Assembly: GCA_028819435.1 (NCBI GenBank)
Contig: JAPPLK010000089.1
Coordinates: forward strand, 62,001-126,000
Direction: 5' to 3'
Origin: Nitrospira sp.
GTDB lineage: Bacteria; Nitrospirota; Nitrospiria; Nitrospirales; UBA8639
DNA length: 64,000 nt
In this document: positions 5,649 to 19,976 of the stretch, in pieces
Layout: each line of letters starts with the position of its first letter
Position numbering within the stretch: the first letter of the stretch is position 1
Translations under genes and position numbers: made by a program
Notes under the pieces: generated by a model
The model's input: only the letters and a program-made list of their open reading frames with translations
Database searches by the model: none
What the model was told of the DNA's origin: nothing

Positions 5649-5710
5649 CCCTGAACAGGAGCGGGGAGGAAGATCGTAGACGGATTAGCTATGGAGGGAT
5701 ACGACTTTGG
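5649..5710. repeat. Integrase-3'-end direct repeat, copy 1 (att-like)
   Basis: These 62 bp match 18735-18796 at 60 positions. The repeat covers the last codons of the integrase (KVVSLHS) and 36 bp beyond the stop codon, including GCGGGGAGGAAGATCGT. Conservation past the coding end is what suggests an attachment-site role rather than mere gene homology. Confidence 0.6.
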
Positions 5711-6104
5711 ACGGGGGCTGTTGGGTGATGTACTCGCCCCATCGTTCCATCAACACGCGGCGTTTGAACAGGTCTGATCGCTGATAAGAGGCCTCGACAC
5801 CCTTCACCGTATGCGCTAAACACGCCTCGGCAATTTCCCGTGAAATATTTTCGTCCGCACACCATGAACGGAACGCCGCCCGCATTCCGTGAGGAGTGCC
5901 CTGTATGTCATTTTCTCTTGACAGCTTGCTCAGCGTCGCATCGCTGATGGAGCCACTCCCCGATGCCGGAAAGATCAACCCGGCTGGCATGTCAGCACTC
6001 TTTCTGTGGGTGGCTGCGACTACCCAAACGGCGACGGTGGTGATTTCAACGACTGTATAATCTTTGCCGGCCAGGGCTGCTAATGGCGGTTGCGTCGTCG
6101 TCAT
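5685..6104 (-). pseudogene. Truncated tyrosine integrase, C-terminal part
   Basis: Only the catalytic C-terminus of a P4-type integrase remains. From about GLIFPASG onward it parallels the intact integrase at 18771-19976: HGMRAAFRSWCADE (HxxR), CLAHTV (second His), SYQRSDL (Tyr nucleophile) and the shared end KVVSLHS. The preceding ~45 residues do not look like integrase, and the N-terminal and core-binding domains are gone. It marks an older integration at the same site. The catalytic Arg upstream is missing, so it cannot be active. Confidence 0.85.
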
Positions 6105-9349: not shown

Positions 9350-10000
9350 ATGCCACAGACTCTTACGATACCTCTCCTCAAAACCGAAGCTTCGGTCTTT
9401 GCTAAGACCGAGTCATCTCACCACGAACCTGCGCTTTACGGAATTACAGACGGCAAAGCCGTCGGAACGTACCTTGAACGGAAATTTCAAAACTATTTGC
9501 ACGCTAAATTTACTTACATCGAAGGTTCTTCTGCCAAGGGAATAGATTTTCCAGAACTCGAAGTCGACATGAAGGTTACGAGTATTCGGCAGCCTCAATC
9601 ATCGTGCCCTTTCAAATCCGCTCGACAGAAAATTTACGGACTCGGGTACAATCTTCTGGTATTTGTCTACGAGAAGACCGACGACGAGGCTAAACGGACG
9701 AGTCGTCTCAATATCATGCACACGATTTTTGTAGATCGTTCACGTACCGGTGATTTTCAGACCACTTCGGGATTGCGTCAGATTATCGAAAACGAAGGCA
9801 ATATTGACGATGTATTGGCATTTTTTTCGGAACGGATGCTTCCCATTGACGACATTCAAGCACAACCACTAGCGGAAGAAGTGCTCCGGAACCCACCGGA
9901 AATGGGCTACCTTACGATCTCCAACGCCTTGCAGTGGCGGCTGCAATATAGCCGCGTTATCCAGCAGGCAGGAACCGTGAATGGCGTTGAAAATTTATGA
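9350..10000 (+). CDS. Type II restriction endonuclease
   Basis: This 216-aa protein precedes a DNA adenine methyltransferase with a 4-bp overlap (ATGA). A PD-(D/E)xK-like core is visible: Glu43 in YLERKFQ, then GIDFPELEVDMKV (Asp66, Asp73, Lys75), followed by QPQSSCPFKSARQKIYGLGYNLLVFVYEK, a conserved stretch in this group of restriction enzymes. Base composition is lower in G+C than the backbone genes, fitting horizontal transfer. The recognition site cannot be inferred. Neither SD nor start is strong, so a nearby alternative start is possible. Confidence 0.8.
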   Translation: MPQTLTIPLLKTEASVFAKTESSHHEPALYGITDGKAVGTYLERKFQNYLHAKFTYIEGSSAKGIDFPELEVDMKVTSIRQPQSSCPFKSARQKIYGLGYNLLVFVYEKTDDEAKRTSRLNIMHTIFVDRSRTGDFQTTSGLRQIIENEGNIDDVLAFFSERMLPIDDIQAQPLAEEVLRNPPEMGYLTISNALQWRLQYSRVIQQAGTVNGVENL

Positions 10001-11559
10001 GCAAACAGAAGGAATTTGGTGACTTCCAGACCCCGAACCATTTAGCGGCGCAAGTGGCTGCCTTGGTTGCTGAATTGTTTGGTTCGCCCGATATTGTCGT
10101 GGAGCCGACAGTCGGCCTTGGTGCATTTCTTCGTGCTTCTCATGGAAAATGGGGCAATGCTTGCAGTTACGAAGGATACGAAATTAATCCCGACTATGTT
10201 CGTTCAACAAGCCGCCGTTTTTCAAGTTTGGGCATCAGACTTTGGCAGCAAGATTTTTTTTCCGCTGACTGGCATCAAATTCTCAGGAAAAAGAATTTGC
10301 CCAGAGTTTTGGTTTTAGGCAATCCGCCTTGGGTCACCAATTCCGAGCAGGGCATCCTCGGCAGCACCAATTTGCCCAAGAAAGCCAACTTCCAACGGCT
10401 GCGAGGTTTTGATGCAAAAACCGGAAAATCGAATTTCGACATAGCCGAATGGATGCTCATTCGCCTGATCGAAGCACTACCTGAGTCAGGCGCAATTGCC
10501 ATGCTTTGTAAAACCATGACTGCCAGGAAAGTCTTACGCCATTTTTGGAAGACTGAGGGCGGGTTTGAGGCATCGAAACTATTTCGCATTGATGCAAAAA
10601 CGAATTTTGGCGTTGCGGTTGACGCCTGTCTGTTTGTCGCGACCGGGAAGCGCACGGAAGATCGCATTGCCACAATATATTCCAGGCTTAACTTGGATTC
10701 TAAGGTCGCGGAGTTTGGATGGGTCGACGGAAACCTCGTTTCAGATATCGGGACCTATACGAAGTTTAGAGAACTGGATGGTGGGTCCCCTTACGCTTGG
10801 CGGTCAGGTATCAAACATGATGCATCCAACGTCATGGAGTTTACTCGCCGCAATGGACACCTTGTGAACGGGTTGGGGGAGGCAGTCGAACTTGAGGAAG
10901 AGTACCTGTATCCCCTTCTAAAGTCTTCAGATTTAGGGAACCGAAGAGCGATTCCTCGCAAGGTCGTTTTAGTCACGCAGCGTCATACTGGTGATGATAC
11001 CAGTTCGATCAGGGATATGGCCCCTAAGACATGGAGATACCTTGATGAGCACTCCGAGAAACTGGATTCACGGAAAAGCTCAATCTATCAGAATCGCCCT
11101 CGATTCAGCATATTTGGAATCGGCGAGTATTCTTTTGCCCCTTGGAAGGTTGCCATATCAGGTCTCTACAAATCTTTCACTTTTGTTGTTGTTCCCCCAG
11201 CAAATGGCCGCCCGGTCATGGTCGATGACACGTGCTATTCGATACCCTGCAAGTCTGAGAAGGAAGCTCGATTACTCTATGATCTACTCAATTCAAAGCC
11301 TGCGCAATGCTTCCTTGGGTCCATTGTATTTGAGGATTCTAAGCGTCCAATCACGGTGGATGTCCTGCGCCGATTTTCTTTGGTCAACGTTGCCAAATTG
11401 GTGGGCCGACTCGACGAATTGACAGAATGCATGTTGTCTGAGTACGACTCGCTAGATGGGCGGCGACAACAACTTAGCCTCGTTATTGAAGAAGCAAGGA
11501 AATATCAAACAAGGCGACGCCGTCCAGTGGTGGCTCCTGAAATTTGGAAAGATCGATAA
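9997..11559 (+). CDS. N6-adenine DNA methyltransferase of a type II R-M system
   Basis: The 520-aa protein shows motif X (FGDFQTP, residues 7-13), motif I (EPTVGLGAFL, about 36-45) and the catalytic motif IV NPPW (109-112). This is the order of gamma-class adenine methyltransferases. The C-terminal half, with PLLKSSDL and a bipartite recognition-like region, probably reads the target. It would protect host DNA against the coupled endonuclease just upstream, which it overlaps by 4 bp. Fusing the genes this tightly with the nuclease first implies that methylation before cleavage is ensured post-translationally or by a separate promoter. Confidence 0.9.
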   Translation: MSKQKEFGDFQTPNHLAAQVAALVAELFGSPDIVVEPTVGLGAFLRASHGKWGNACSYEGYEINPDYVRSTSRRFSSLGIRLWQQDFFSADWHQILRKKNLPRVLVLGNPPWVTNSEQGILGSTNLPKKANFQRLRGFDAKTGKSNFDIAEWMLIRLIEALPESGAIAMLCKTMTARKVLRHFWKTEGGFEASKLFRIDAKTNFGVAVDACLFVATGKRTEDRIATIYSRLNLDSKVAEFGWVDGNLVSDIGTYTKFRELDGGSPYAWRSGIKHDASNVMEFTRRNGHLVNGLGEAVELEEEYLYPLLKSSDLGNRRAIPRKVVLVTQRHTGDDTSSIRDMAPKTWRYLDEHSEKLDSRKSSIYQNRPRFSIFGIGEYSFAPWKVAISGLYKSFTFVVVPPANGRPVMVDDTCYSIPCKSEKEARLLYDLLNSKPAQCFLGSIVFEDSKRPITVDVLRRFSLVNVAKLVGRLDELTECMLSEYDSLDGRRQQLSLVIEEARKYQTRRRRPVVAPEIWKDR

Positions 11560-11849: not shown

Positions 11850-12638
11850 CTAGTCTGACCCCACAGAACTCCCTCGCCAGAATCGCCGTGACTGCCTACG
11901 CGCGAGGTTTCGGTACAAATGGCGACCCACGATATGATCAACTGCTCCTCGAACCGCATCGACGCACTCCTCCAGTATGTCTGAAACTACAAATCCTGCA
12001 ACGGGCGAACTCTTTTCACGAGAAAATTTAATTCCTACTTGGAAGGCGTCCCTACTAATCGGCCTCTTTTCCTCAAAAGCATCTAAGGCTTCCCCACTAT
12101 GAGCCTCAGGCTTCAATCCTCTCAGGGTCGTGCAAACCAAATTCAAATGCCGGTGCTTATCGACATTGCATAGATAGTCCAGTTGCCCAAACACATTTAC
12201 ATTAAACGGCAAACCCAGGCCTCCCCCAAAAGGCTGAAGATCGCGAATCCTCTTCTTGATTTCGTAGCGGACGCCACTCAGTTTGTCTTTTGTCATATTT
12301 TCCCAATCGGACTCTTCGCTAAAAATCGGAAATGCATTCTTTCTTGATGGGTTTTTCCCATTATCAACAACCAACTGCCATACGAGATGATCAAGACTTG
12401 ATCGCAGGTTGTAAACAATTTCTCCGATTCTGACGGACCATTCGATGGGTGTTTTCTCCGAGTCGGCTAAAAATGCCTCTACAATGTCCGCAGACTTTCC
12501 ATCTGGATTTTTCCGTGTAATTCTCTTTTGTTCAACGCGCTGTCGTTCGCAAAAGTTCTCCATATCGGTGCGAAGGGCATGAAGCTCCCTATCCGCTCTT
12601 CCAATTTTTGCACAAATCGCTTCAAGATAGATTGCCAT
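11850..12638 (-). CDS. HEPN-like protein (Rx4H motif), 262 aa
   Basis: The protein is mostly helical. An N-terminal coiled segment leads into IGEIVYNLRSSLDHLVWQLV (about residues 75-95), where RSSLDH fits the Rx4-6H ribonuclease motif of HEPN domains in the right helical setting. A second conserved part, QLDYLCNVDKHRHLNLV, follows. Families with this NLRSxLDHL motif are widespread and usually left hypothetical. The start has an SD-like AAGGAAAG. Just upstream is a fragment that reads like the end of hsdS. It is next to, and co-oriented with, the SIR2 gene. A HEPN RNase role in defence is inference. Confidence 0.6.
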   Translation of the reverse strand: MAIYLEAICAKIGRADRELHALRTDMENFCERQRVEQKRITRKNPDGKSADIVEAFLADSEKTPIEWSVRIGEIVYNLRSSLDHLVWQLVVDNGKNPSRKNAFPIFSEESDWENMTKDKLSGVRYEIKKRIRDLQPFGGGLGLPFNVNVFGQLDYLCNVDKHRHLNLVCTTLRGLKPEAHSGEALDAFEEKRPISRDAFQVGIKFSREKSSPVAGFVVSDILEECVDAVRGAVDHIVGRHLYRNLARRQSRRFWRGSSVGSD

Positions 12639-12644
12639 TGCTCG

Positions 12645-12692
12645 CTATCTTTCCTTCACATCTTCACTCATCAGACGCGGCCCACAACCTCT
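12645..12692 (-). pseudogene. hsdS 3'-end relic upstream of the HEPN-like gene
   Basis: Read on the minus strand, the frame ends RRGCGPRLMSEDVKER then TAG, 6 bp before the HEPN-like start. PRLMS(G/E)(D/E) followed by a stop is the typical C-terminus of type I restriction specificity subunits. Upstream of it, frames are broken. The nucleotide core (12657-12680) matches 16664-16687 at 20 of 24 positions. Confidence 0.45.
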
Positions 12693-12833
12693 CCGATCCA
12701 AAATCCTCATGGTTATCGGTATCGCCCACCTTTCAGCCAAAGGATTTTTGCAAAGACTCGACCGCAATCTGCTGGGCAAGAGCGTCTTCACTGAAGTTAC
12801 TGAGCCTCATCTTCAGTCACCTTTGTCAGTTAC
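12693..12833. other. Gap between SIR2 stop and HEPN-like leader
   Basis: On the minus strand a 25-aa frame with an SD-like AAAGGTG (MRLSNFSEDALAQQIAVESLQKSFG) starts after the SIR2 stop and then meets TGA. It reads like the truncated start of a gene. Nothing else is recognised. Confidence 0.3.
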
Positions 12834-15800
12834 TCACACTAGGCCCTGTCTTTCGATCAATTCTTCCAAGCGTCTGAAGCGCTCGGCGGTCGCCAATTGC
12901 TGATCTTCTTGCCTTATGTCATTTAAACATTGCCGGAGTTCTTCAGGTACCCATTCTGCCTCTGGGCCAACAATTGCCTCCAGGAATGTCAAGGCACGTT
13001 CGGGAAATCTTTGGCAAATCTCTGCTTCGCGAAGGCGACGAACCAGAAAAATAAGAGTCGGTGGGTTCCCTGGTTTGAGCCAGTGGCACAATATATCCAA
13101 TGCTTCAGGAAAGGCATCTCCCGCTGCCACGCAGAGGCGTCCGAGATCCTCGGATATTTGGGTTGTTGCGCGCGCCTCGTCTTGCGGCCAGATTTGGCTG
13201 AAAAATGGAAGCACTCGATTTTGCCAATATTCAACGCGCTGATCCCCTGCTCCTTCAAGCGCACGAGTCAGTGTCCGTGCAACATTTTTTAATCCAGGCT
13301 GTGGTAGGTTTTTCGTCGCTGTTGCCAATTCTTCGATTGTGAAAATACCGCCTGGATCCAGTGCCGCAAAAGTCAGAAAGTCTGCATACTGCTGGGCATG
13401 CTCGCTACCGAACTTTTCATAATGATTCGCCGTTTCCAAAATGGGCTCTTTTATAACTGACAGGAGCGGACCATATAAGCGCGGTGATCGTAAAAACCCT
13501 GCCCACACGGAAAAAGCCTCGACTTCCAAATGTTGCCAGTCAAAGAGCGGCACGAGATATTCCATCGTCCAATCACGATCTACTTGATACAATGAAACAA
13601 CGTGGGCTGCCAACACGACACGCCCATGTCGGTATTTTTCTATGTCCGTATTGCATAGTTCTGTAAAGATTAGTTTTAGCGTTCCCGGCAGCTCTTGGCC
13701 CTCTTCAGGCGCACTCCGATGCCACCAGCGCAACAACGCTTCCGTTACCAACCCAACCGTATGACTCATGGCTCGAAAGAGCGCATTATCCATGAGGAGA
13801 CTGTCGAAATTTTCTTCGTCTGGATGATCCATCCTGAGAATGCGACGGCAAAGGTTCAAAAAGAACTCTTCATGGCCTTCGATGTTCGTGGCTATGGCCT
13901 GAAGCCACCAACCGAGAACGTGTCCGAGCGAATGTACGAATTCATCTGACGCATCATTCAGAACGGGTCCTATGTAGCGCCATGACCGTTTGATGTGCTC
14001 GCCCTCTGACCAAGCCCGAAGTGCTTCTTGCCAACGGCCCTCCGGCCATTCGTTTTGTCTGGCTAATACACGCAAAGCCCAGGCAGAGGTCGGAAAGTAG
14101 TTGCGGCAACGCTGTAGCCAGCCGTCTTGCCTCCAATGGTTAGCAGGACCGTGATGTTCCCTGAGCCATTCAACCAGTTCGCGGCGCCTTTGTGGTGTGG
14201 GCAAAAATTCACGCCGGTCTGCGCCGTCGTTTACTTCCATCCAGGCTGGAAATTCATCACTTTCGTCTTCGGGCATCCGCCATATCGGGTGCTGCTGTGT
14301 TAGTTCATCCAATTTCGTTCTCGCAGCTTGGCCCAGTGCTGCCCCAGCTGATTGTATTTTTTCAAGACGTAACCATACGTAACGGTCTACTATGCCTGCC
14401 CGCTTTTCTTGCTCAAGGTCGTTCGGAAACATTTCGCTTGGTGGTCCGTTCAGAATGGCGCGTTCTAGTTTATCCCTCTCAGATGGGTCCAATTTCGACG
14501 CCAAAGTCACTAAAAGGCGTAGTGACTCACGCTGGGTTCCCGTTGACCAGAGCCACCAACTGTCTTCTGCCAGCAACCAGTCCAAAGCCTGCTGTTGTGA
14601 AATCACTTCGGGTTGTGCAGCAGCAAACAAAGCCAACCGCTTGAAAACGGGAAAACGGATCTGCCACCAGCCTTCGGCTGCCTGCCGAGCTCGAGCATGA
14701 TCAATTTGCGCAGTCGCCAGCCATGCATCACGCGTTAATTTGATCAGAGCGGTCCAATCTCGGAAGTCGCTATTCTGGGTGTGGTCGCTAATCGAAGGGT
14801 GCTGCATATAAGAGAGATCCGTCCTTTCGTCCGCGGCGCCCAATTCTCGTTTCAGATCAAGCGCATCCCGTAAGAGTACGGTAAAATCTGGCAATAGATC
14901 GGGCAGCCCTTCCTGCCACCTCTCCCGCCTCTCTGACTTAGACAGTAACGCTGCATGTACATGGTCACTGGCGAGGACAAGTTCCCACTCGACAAGATCT
15001 TCAATGCGTGAGGGCTCGGACGAGTCAAGGTCATCCTCACCCCAATGAAAGGGCTCCCGTAAAGTCACGCACGGCGCCAAGATCTCTCGCAATTCCGTAC
15101 GAAGAGATGGCGTTATCCCATCCCGCGCTATGCGGTCAAGCCACTGTGTTTCGTAGAGACTGTAACGATGAGTCGGCGATCTTAGTCGCCCAGCCAAAAG
15201 CAGTCGCCATAACGTACGCATCAATCGACCGGGAATAGCCTTAGGCGCGTTGGCACGGATGCGGTCGAGTTCGTCATCGCTCTTGGTATCAAGTTCTTCG
15301 ATTCGGCTACGAATGAGCCGTGCAAATTGCTCATCCAACTGACCACCACGTTCAGCCAGCCAGATAATCAGCTTAGGGTCGTCAAGATGCCGCGTGAGCC
15401 AACGCGCCAAGTGGCTCATTATCTTGTCCCAACCGCTTCGCCGTGCACCTAAATACACCAGGCCCATCCGGAGTGAGAGTGTGTAAGGTGCCGGGCGATT
15501 TAATACGCTGAAACGCAGTTTCTCATCCTCGTCGTTGGTTGCAACGACACCGAAGCACGACAAGTCTCGATGTTCAAACTGGTGTTTTCCGAGCGGATCC
15601 AACCATTCTAGCGGAGGTACGGGATTCATCTCGGCAAAGTGCTGCGCAGCCAAGTCATCTGTCAGGGCCCATAGCACACGTCCCACCGCAAAGTCCGAGC
15701 GAGAAGAAGTCAATGGAGGAGTACTTGCGTGTTGGGTAATAATCATTTTCTTGCCTTGCACGCCGTCACGATAGGTATCTGCCCATTCTTTGAGCGTACG

Positions 15801-16655
15801 ATGAAGCGCGGAATGGTTTTCTCCATTCGCAGGAACCTCGTACGTTAATGGACTAATCCCTTTCGCCTTCCATTCCGCTGACGTTCTCTCTTTTTGACCA
15901 GTTGTAAAGCTTGCGAAGGCATAGGCTTCCGACTTCTTCTCTCCCAGCAACTCATCAGCGGCAAGCGCATCCATCATGTAGCGAAGAACAGGATCATTGA
16001 CGCGGTAACCAACAAAACAGACGATGTGATGTTGGAACAGTGCACTGACAAACCGCGCCGCCCAACGTTCGGTCAAGTAGGCTAGGCCAAAATCACCGCT
16101 GCTGAGCACCAAGCGATTTAATGCAGCCTCATCAGGCTGAGTCGGCAGCAAGCCGTGTAGATGCACGATTCCATTCCAACGGCTTGGTTTGGGAATGGGA
16201 AGATAGGGGGCTTCAAAGCTATCAATCTTAAGTTCTTCTTGGGCAATGACATGTTGGAAAATGCGGTCGAAATTGGTCGTGACGAGCCGGCTGATGCCGT
16301 ATCGGTCTTTTGCGAGTTGCAGTAACGCCCAATGCGTCGTCGTGGCGCCTTCTCCGTCCAACTCAGGCTTGAGAACAGATGCCAAGGTCTTTCTGACCAC
16401 GGGACGTTGCCCAGGATATCTTCGTTCTAGTTGATGAATCGTCGCGTCATAGTGTCCTTTTTCATAAGCCTCCTTCTCTACAGGCTCCATATTTGTGCCC
16501 AACTGTTGATAAATACCGTCAACCAATCCCTTAAATCGTGGCAAGCCTGCTGGGACGGAAATGCCTGCGCCACAAAAAAATACAACATGGCCATCTTCAT
16601 GCGCCTGTAACAGGTGCTCAGGAATATCCGGACCATCGGTGATAAAAGCAGGCAT
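12834..16655 (-). CDS. SIR2-domain defence protein, 1273 aa
   Basis: The N-terminal ~290 residues form a SIR2-type NAD-binding domain. They include GAGIS at 29-33, TTNFD at 126-130 and the catalytic HG in VHLHG (His167), followed by a late Rossmann segment VCFVGYRVNDPVLRYMM. The remaining ~950 residues are a Trp-rich alpha-helical region without a catalytic motif, as in large sirtuin defence proteins; I believe it contains a DUF4020-like part. Such proteins deplete NAD+ when infection is sensed. All SIR2 catalytic residues look intact. Its ATG overlaps the stop of an apparent hsdS relic (TGATG), so it may be translated by coupling. Confidence 0.8.
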   Translation of the reverse strand: MPAFITDGPDIPEHLLQAHEDGHVVFFCGAGISVPAGLPRFKGLVDGIYQQLGTNMEPVEKEAYEKGHYDATIHQLERRYPGQRPVVRKTLASVLKPELDGEGATTTHWALLQLAKDRYGISRLVTTNFDRIFQHVIAQEELKIDSFEAPYLPIPKPSRWNGIVHLHGLLPTQPDEAALNRLVLSSGDFGLAYLTERWAARFVSALFQHHIVCFVGYRVNDPVLRYMMDALAADELLGEKKSEAYAFASFTTGQKERTSAEWKAKGISPLTYEVPANGENHSALHRTLKEWADTYRDGVQGKKMIITQHASTPPLTSSRSDFAVGRVLWALTDDLAAQHFAEMNPVPPLEWLDPLGKHQFEHRDLSCFGVVATNDEDEKLRFSVLNRPAPYTLSLRMGLVYLGARRSGWDKIMSHLARWLTRHLDDPKLIIWLAERGGQLDEQFARLIRSRIEELDTKSDDELDRIRANAPKAIPGRLMRTLWRLLLAGRLRSPTHRYSLYETQWLDRIARDGITPSLRTELREILAPCVTLREPFHWGEDDLDSSEPSRIEDLVEWELVLASDHVHAALLSKSERRERWQEGLPDLLPDFTVLLRDALDLKRELGAADERTDLSYMQHPSISDHTQNSDFRDWTALIKLTRDAWLATAQIDHARARQAAEGWWQIRFPVFKRLALFAAAQPEVISQQQALDWLLAEDSWWLWSTGTQRESLRLLVTLASKLDPSERDKLERAILNGPPSEMFPNDLEQEKRAGIVDRYVWLRLEKIQSAGAALGQAARTKLDELTQQHPIWRMPEDESDEFPAWMEVNDGADRREFLPTPQRRRELVEWLREHHGPANHWRQDGWLQRCRNYFPTSAWALRVLARQNEWPEGRWQEALRAWSEGEHIKRSWRYIGPVLNDASDEFVHSLGHVLGWWLQAIATNIEGHEEFFLNLCRRILRMDHPDEENFDSLLMDNALFRAMSHTVGLVTEALLRWWHRSAPEEGQELPGTLKLIFTELCNTDIEKYRHGRVVLAAHVVSLYQVDRDWTMEYLVPLFDWQHLEVEAFSVWAGFLRSPRLYGPLLSVIKEPILETANHYEKFGSEHAQQYADFLTFAALDPGGIFTIEELATATKNLPQPGLKNVARTLTRALEGAGDQRVEYWQNRVLPFFSQIWPQDEARATTQISEDLGRLCVAAGDAFPEALDILCHWLKPGNPPTLIFLVRRLREAEICQRFPERALTFLEAIVGPEAEWVPEELRQCLNDIRQEDQQLATAERFRRLEELIERQGLV

Positions 16656-16789
16656 CAGACCGACACATCTCCGCTCATCAGGCGTGGTAGGAGCAGGCCA
16701 CAGGTTTTCGTTGCCTCAGCAACCTTCTCCCCAAATGAGGTATAGATCGACGGCGAGTAAGTGGTGAAATTATATCCTCCGTATGAACT
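16655..16789 (-). pseudogene. hsdS 3'-end relic upstream of the SIR2 gene
   Basis: The minus-strand frame is open for about 45 codons and ends GEKVAEATKTCGLLLPRLMSGDVSV then TGA. TRxLLLPRLMSGxxxV followed by a stop is the hallmark C-terminus of HsdS, the specificity subunit of type I restriction enzymes. The TGA overlaps the SIR2 ATG. No target-recognition domain or start codon remains. Confidence 0.5.
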
Positions 16790-18734: not shown

Positions 18735-18796
18735 CCCTGAACAGAAGCGGGGAGGAAGATCGTGGACGGATTAGCTATGGAGGGATACGACTTTGG
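18735..18796. repeat. Integrase-3'-end direct repeat, copy 2 (att-like)
   Basis: Matches 5649-5710 with two substitutions. It includes the last codons of the intact integrase and 36 bp beyond its stop. Together the two copies delimit a 13.1-kb segment with the decayed integrase at its left end and alpA at its right end. Confidence 0.6.
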
Positions 18797-19976
18797 TCCG
18801 GGGCGTGTGCAGCACGAAGTCGGCCCATCGTTGCATGAGGCGACGGCGCTTGTTCAACAAGTCTGATCGAGAGTAGGCTTGCTCGACTTGCGACCCGACG
18901 CGGTGAGCCAAACACAATTCCATGACCGCGTGATCGCTATTGGTCCGTTCACTGGCCCAGGTTCTAAACGTGCTCCGGAACCCATGCGCGACCGCTCGAT
19001 CGGCTAGGCCCGCTTGTTCGAGGACGCGGGACAAGACCGGTGCGGTGAGGGGCCGTCCTTTCCGTGCCGGCGAGGGAAAGATGAGCCCAGCGGCACCAGA
19101 CACCTGCTTGGCCCGTTTCAGGATCGTCAGGGCGGCATCGGAGAGGGGCACCCGATGTTCGGCCTTCATTTTCATTTTGCTGGCGGGGATGGTCCAGAGT
19201 TTGTTGCCCCAATCAATTTCTGACCACTCCGCGTTGCGGGCTTCCCCCGGACGCACCGCCGTCAAGATCAAGAAGTGCAGACAGAGCTTGGACGTGAGAG
19301 TAGCCGGACAGGCGTCAATCAATTCCAGGGCGTCGTGAACCTCTTGATAGGGAAGGCTCCGGCGGTGTTCTTTGACGACCGGCATACTGGGCAACGCCCC
19401 GTCCAAAACTTCCCCTGCCACGTTCTGCACAACGAACCCATGAGCAACACACCATTGCAGGATCATGCGGATGCGTTGCCGGAGCCGCTTGGCCTGTTGC
19501 GGGACGGACGTCCACAGAGGCGTGAGGAGCCGGAGCAGGTCTTGCCGGGTGATCTGGTCCACCGCCTTGTTGCCAAAGGCGGGGAAAGGATACTTCTCAA
19601 GCGGTTGGAGCCACACATCCGTATGTGGTCCCGCTTTCCAGCGTGGAAGATTTTCTTTGTAGTAGCGGGACGCCGCCTCTTTGAACGTCGGCATCGCGGC
19701 TTGTTTCCTCCTGGCCTCTTGCTTTTCCGCAACAGGGTTTCTCCCTTCTGAGAGGGCGACCCGATTGTCAAAGGCTTTCCGTCGAGCCGTCTCTAAACTG
19801 ACCACGGGCCACGCGCCAAGGCCAATGTTATGCGGCTGACCGTTGATGGTGAGGCGTTGCACCCAGGACAGGCGTCCGGAGGGCGAGACGTAGACATGCA
19901 GCGTATCGCCGTCTCCGTACATGCGTGACGGCTTGTTTCTCAAGCTCTTGATCTTCGCTACGGTGAGCTTCCCCAT
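18771..19976 (-). CDS. P4-type tyrosine integrase
   Basis: The 401-aa protein has the N-terminal DUF4102 arm-binding domain (LTVAKIKSLRNKPSRMYGDGDTLHVYV), a core-binding domain around 95-180 and a complete catalytic domain. Catalytic residues are Arg242 (AVRPGEA), a Lys near 269-271, His331 and Arg334 (HGFR), His358 (LAHRVG) and Tyr368 (AYSR). It should catalyse site-specific integration and excision of the island. Its 3' end lies in the 62-bp repeat shared with the decayed integrase. Its 5' leader holds three copies of an 8-bp motif, probably a control site. Confidence 0.95.
   Translation of the reverse strand: MGKLTVAKIKSLRNKPSRMYGDGDTLHVYVSPSGRLSWVQRLTINGQPHNIGLGAWPVVSLETARRKAFDNRVALSEGRNPVAEKQEARRKQAAMPTFKEAASRYYKENLPRWKAGPHTDVWLQPLEKYPFPAFGNKAVDQITRQDLLRLLTPLWTSVPQQAKRLRQRIRMILQWCVAHGFVVQNVAGEVLDGALPSMPVVKEHRRSLPYQEVHDALELIDACPATLTSKLCLHFLILTAVRPGEARNAEWSEIDWGNKLWTIPASKMKMKAEHRVPLSDAALTILKRAKQVSGAAGLIFPSPARKGRPLTAPVLSRVLEQAGLADRAVAHGFRSTFRTWASERTNSDHAVMELCLAHRVGSQVEQAYSRSDLLNKRRRLMQRWADFVLHTPRTKVVSLHS

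Follow-up and report, generated by a model that had tools for sequence, protein, structure and literature searches.

In the DNA analysed here, dsr1, the gene of an anti-phage defence-associated sirtuin, is framed, as judged by sequence comparison, by the end of an hsdS gene and the beginning of an hsdR gene. The locus is very probably the fossil of a type I operon of the order hsdM-hsdS-dsr1-hsdR, from which the restriction genes have been lost while the embedded antiphage gene was kept. The window, by which we mean the whole analysed stretch of 64 kb, is part of contig C61 in a draft genome of Nitrospira type, and the nearest relative of the locus was found in Nitrospira sp. bin75. The features are collected in Table 1.

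Table 1. Features of the dsr1 locus, in positions of the window
Feature	Position	Strand	Remarks
Truncated integrase C-terminus	5685-6104	-	Resembles the integrase next to dsr1 in bin75; one flank of the defence cluster
Type II restriction endonuclease (NCBIfam NF052465) and its methyltransferase	9350-11559	+	Convergent to the HEPN-like gene
HEPN-like gene	11850..12638	-	262 aa; the genome has a homologue directly behind an intact hsdS (contig C48)
Relic 2 core, read as second hsdS 3' remnant	12645..12680	-	PRLMSEDVKER*, fused directly to the hsdR remnant
hsdR 5' remnant	12685..12810	-	MRLSNFSEDALAQQIAVESLQKSFG*KVGDTDNHEDFGSERL; tblastn, HMM, DNA comparison
dsr1, anti-phage defence-associated sirtuin	12834..16655	-	1273 aa, intact; SIR2_2 domain at residues 124-270
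Relic 1, read as hsdS 3' remnant	16655..16756	-	33 codons, SPSIYTSFGEKVAEATKTCGLLLPRLMSGDVSV, and TGA
Intact integrase with AlpA	18771-19976	-	Other flank of the defence cluster

Along the minus strand an integrase, an AlpA regulator and a Replic_Relax-like gene are followed by relic 1, dsr1, relic 2 and the HEPN-like gene, and the remnants are arranged as hsdS tail, dsr1, hsdR head fused with a further hsdS tail, and second gene. A type II restriction pair follows the HEPN-like gene on the plus strand, and since the two are convergent the locus is regarded as a defence cluster. No tRNA was found near the element in positions 1-30000 of the window. Nor is there a functional type I restriction system at the locus, where complete hsdR, hsdM and hsdS are absent and remnants only are present.

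The protein encoded by dsr1 matches the DSR1 family over its full length, with 1736 bits against NCBIfam NF041818 (cut-off 1400; residues 4-1267 of 1273, profile positions 3-1262 of 1263) and 1564 bits against PADLOC Dsr1. Its SIR2_2 domain (E 9e-22) retains the conserved Asn, Asp and His, and N128, D130 and H167 are invariant in an alignment of 12 sequences. The gene is predicted still to work as an abortive-infection NADase. The window dsr1 differs from those in the plasmid records examined in having an hsdS end beside it; one such record (H8) has a type I operon near dsr1 in the opposite orientation.

An earlier note on this DNA had drawn attention to two short frames ending in PRLMS(E/G)DV, and both exist on the minus strand where it had placed them. 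Their 24-base cores agree at 20 positions, and of the four exchanges three are synonymous (CCA/CCG, CGC/CGT, AGC/AGT) and the fourth is G/E, as had been counted; such a match was reached by none of 3000 dinucleotide shuffles and none of 2945 random window pieces. Relic 1 ends GLLLPRLMSGDVSV-TGA, and this TGA (16657-16655) has the one base in common with the dsr1 ATG (16655-16653) that makes up the overlap noticed before. The stop of relic 2 is a TAG, 6 nt upstream of the next gene's ATG. When five intact hsdS tails from other genomes were compared with every 24-mer of the 64 kb on both strands, relic 1 ranked first (20.0/24) and relic 2 second (18.0), the next site reaching 15.2. Because of these two ranks both relics are best read as hsdS 3' ends. 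This agrees with what had been proposed, except that relic 2 is the junction of an hsdR head with an hsdS tail and not a simple hsdS end. The HsdS similarity expected in a profile search was obtained for relic 1, which has the conserved LLLPRLMSGE tail and is the top match of a small HsdS-tail HMM (E 2e-4), but not at a significant level for relic 2, which is too short for this HMM, lacks the LLL part and has its support in the DNA. The relic peptides had no match among PADLOC and NCBIfam models or in plasmids.

Ahead of PRLMSEDV the earlier note had missed an hsdR 5' end, the start codon of which lies 23 nt past the dsr1 stop. It contains one in-frame TGA where relatives have Trp, and it has the YTEDTLVQQTTAEYLE..LGW...NHEDFGP start of its HsdR family. 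The remnant was found by tblastn with the HsdR of the verrucomicrobial locus L163 (E 4e-5), and it is the best window match of an HMM built from eight related HsdR starts (E 5e-4), of which the second match overall is the orthologous place in bin75. Compared at the DNA level with five hsdR genes, it scored 59.0/99 nt, about 8 standard deviations over the window mean and with a next best of 44.0; the orthologous place in bin75 likewise ranked first (56.8/99, next best 44). The match emerged only once this closely related HsdR family had been found via L163, and blastp of the relic peptides against unlike HsdR families gave no match. PRLMSEDV itself was initially read as hsdR sequence, a reading that was dropped after direct comparison, in which the core fitted hsdS tails far better.

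The same dsr1 and HEPN-like pair is present in bin75, together with a decayed hsdS tail (PRFMNRDGSV*) and an hsdR remnant, and its dsr1 is frameshifted near codon 84. Identity between the window and bin75 is 72% in relic 1, where DNA homology reaches 16731, and 54% in relic 2, at the equivalent of which bin75 has no recognisable hsdS tail. The scar is common to both genomes and therefore old and inherited. The dN/dS of 0.25 between the two dsr1 genes denotes purifying selection, and dsr1 was under selection at a time when the restriction genes had already disappeared.

The intact arrangement is found elsewhere. Scanning genome contigs with a single DSR1 protein gave no match; a DSR1 alignment as query gave 80 genome loci (the best 80 of 262) and 21 viral-contig loci, and counts among these best 80 are not frequencies. 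An intact hsdS ends at most 2 nt from the dsr1 start, or overlaps it, in nine of the best 80 of 262 loci (L106, L107, L114, L119, L137, L147, L151, L163 and L165), bearing out the expectation that homologues of the SIR2 gene, as dsr1 had been called, would stand directly after intact hsdS genes. The order in L163 is hsdM, hsdS ending LLLPKLMSGEVAV*, dsr1 and hsdR; the dsr1 ATG overlaps the hsdS stop, and hsdR begins at the dsr1 stop. The DSR1 proteins of L163, the window and bin75 share a clade with 99% support, and the grouping of L110, L163 and the window contains long branches flagged by the tree tool. In eight of the nine loci the type I family is a second one, with the tail LLPATLERVF, and dsr1 is thus found behind hsdS in two unlike families, with LLLPKLMSG and LLPATLERVF tails. 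In Nitrospirota no genome was found to have dsr1 within an intact type I operon.

Fossils comparable to that of the window also recur. Truncated hsdS tails of the LLPATLERVF family stand exactly before dsr1 in five loci outside Nitrospira, namely L104 (E 5e-22), L168 (3e-14), L136 (1e-10), L128 (5e-10) and L181 (3e-4), and weaker candidates are L112, L115 and L150, the last with an hsdR 5' part farther upstream. An operon of the order hsdR-M-S-dsr1 with an internal deletion is suggested by L150, from Nitrosomonas sp. Nm132, in which 59 bp separate dsr1 from the end of a preceding hsdR piece that covers the first third of the gene (residues 3-271 of 806). Loci linked to hsdS are dispersed across the DSR1 tree, with six or more changes of linkage, and most other DSR1 genes have no such hsdS-tail leader. 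A similar orphaning of dsr1 from type I operons appears to have taken place several times in unrelated bacteria.

The HEPN label that had been given to the second gene is unproven and no more than a lead. Searches of Pfam, PADLOC, NCBIfam and PDB sequences gave no match for the gene, its structure model is of low confidence (pLDDT 61) and gave no fold match, and NLRSSLDH is present in the product but the R and H of R-x4-H are not invariant in the alignment. A homologue directly after an intact hsdS had also been anticipated, and contig C48 has one of 46% identity, the start of which lies four bases within the hsdS 3' end; in other genomes of the order, by contrast, no hsd gene was found beside the relatives whose flanks were examined. 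No HEPN-like homologue was found in phages, and plasmids yielded two weak Streptomyces matches. The similarity of the C48 homologue (L009:14604-15419) ends after about residue 177, where the sequence resembles an inserted short repeat. On the same contig a nucleotidyltransferase domain is fused to the HsdS N-terminus (L009:12578-14607); the fusion is preceded by its HEPN-type partner (NTase_sub_bind), and the type I operon also carries a Schlafen/AlbA gene.

In relatives of the window genome that have the same type I family (HsdR about 70% identical), the place between hsdS and hsdR is taken by different cargo. The occupants are a TIR protein together with an AlbA/Schlafen gene, a restriction-type gene of the GHKL-ATPase kind together with a C5 methylase-Vsr, or HepT. 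This variety marks the hsdS-hsdR slot as one that takes up cargo, in agreement with the literature on DarTG2 and TgvAB (PMC12255303, PMC11411939). Within the same genus, hsdM-hsdS-cargo-hsdR operons with differing cargo are located near ruvA in G173 and bin75 (L233, L234, L235), apparently a place in the chromosome where one defence gene can be swapped for another.

That type I operons carry defence cargo is already known. In enteropathogenic E. coli a type I system has DarTG2 lodged between its hsdS and hsdR genes, at a site that the authors suggest to be a recombination hotspot (PMC12255303). DarTG2 resembles dsr1 in being defence cargo in this slot, but its host operon is intact, the cargo is a toxin-antitoxin pair and no remnants were described (PMC12255303). 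In Vibrio cholerae the VPI-2 type I operon contains TgvAB, and in Campylobacter RloF is situated between hsdR and hsdS (PMC11411939). These, too, are defence genes inside type I operons that elsewhere also occur alone, and they differ from dsr1 in that the cargo is type IV-like restriction and the host operon intact (PMC11411939). Genes embedded in defence systems are also the subject of a preprint, Payne et al. 2024, as cited in PMC12988326. A literature search, incomplete in coverage, found no paper naming both Dsr1 and hsdS. The occupation of the slot by dsr1, in two type I families, and the repeated fossils of a lost host operon appear to be new.

The history that we prefer for the locus begins with dsr1 in the cargo slot between hsdS and hsdR, where its start codon would have overlapped the hsdS stop. 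An upstream deletion would have taken hsdM and all of hsdS except the last 30 or so codons, and these would persist because the dsr1 start overlaps them. A downstream deletion would have taken all of hsdR except about the first 45 codons and fused this head with the last part of a second hsdS, whose own downstream cargo would have been the HEPN-like gene. The order of these events and the origin of the downstream junction from two operons are what we infer from remnants that are short (24-126 nt). The step that joins the second hsdS to the HEPN-like gene is also an inferred one, with a single example, that of C48, because the relatives examined elsewhere in the order have no hsd gene beside them.

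The earlier note had explained the locus by exchange of cargo: homologous recombination within the conserved 3' end of hsdS would have placed dsr1 and the HEPN-like gene each behind such a gene, and this end would have travelled with them as a scar. Two different genes each behind an hsdS tail, the presence of dsr1 behind hsdS in two unlike families and the scattered linkage on the DSR1 tree agree with such exchange. We nevertheless consider it doubtful and prefer loss of the operon because dsr1 is also followed by an hsdR start, which points to a complete S-dsr1-R arrangement before decay, and exchange alone does not predict that. The scar would accordingly be one of recombination, as had been thought, but mainly one in which the host operon was deleted around its cargo. 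Rather less likely again is a history with one operon, in which relic 1 is the only hsdS tail and PRLMSEDV a frame-shifted piece of the hsdR head (G-R-A-S-E-R-E-V-V), with no second hsdS. The multiple alignment with hsdR is collinear into the PRLMSEDV core, and bin75 has no hsdS tail at that place; against this, the core matches hsdS tails at 17-20 of 24 positions (P <= 0.003 for five of six), compared with P 0.05-0.79 for collinear hsdR. The short length of the sequences and the failure of PADLOC and NCBIfam models to match them would suit chance motifs or leader parts of dsr1 and the second gene. Such an origin is nonetheless highly improbable when the relics hold the first two ranks of all window positions, the hsdR head stands so far above the window mean and most other DSR1 genes lack a leader of this kind.

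One may also speculate, although we think it rather unlikely, that the hsdS 3' end serves dsr1 as a portable dock, its last codons giving the overlapping dsr1 its translation start context and being kept as a functional leader. Carried in this way, dsr1 could lose the restriction operon and move on, yet would have to retain the hsdS tail. If true, this would explain how hsdS tails of only 9-33 codons persist before dsr1 in unrelated bacteria. A Shine-Dalgarno test of the tails gave a weak trend only (mean -4.3 kcal/mol without tails, about -2 to -10 with tails).

The operon-loss history concerns the fate of defence genes nested in restriction operons: the host operon can vanish and the guest be left as a stand-alone system. 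Since the guest may outlive its host operon, at least part of the present solitary dsr1 genes would be freed riders of type I operons. Fossils in the flanks record directly, and in searchable form, the origin of solitary defence genes. With them it becomes testable whether embedded genes need the host operon for expression or self-protection.
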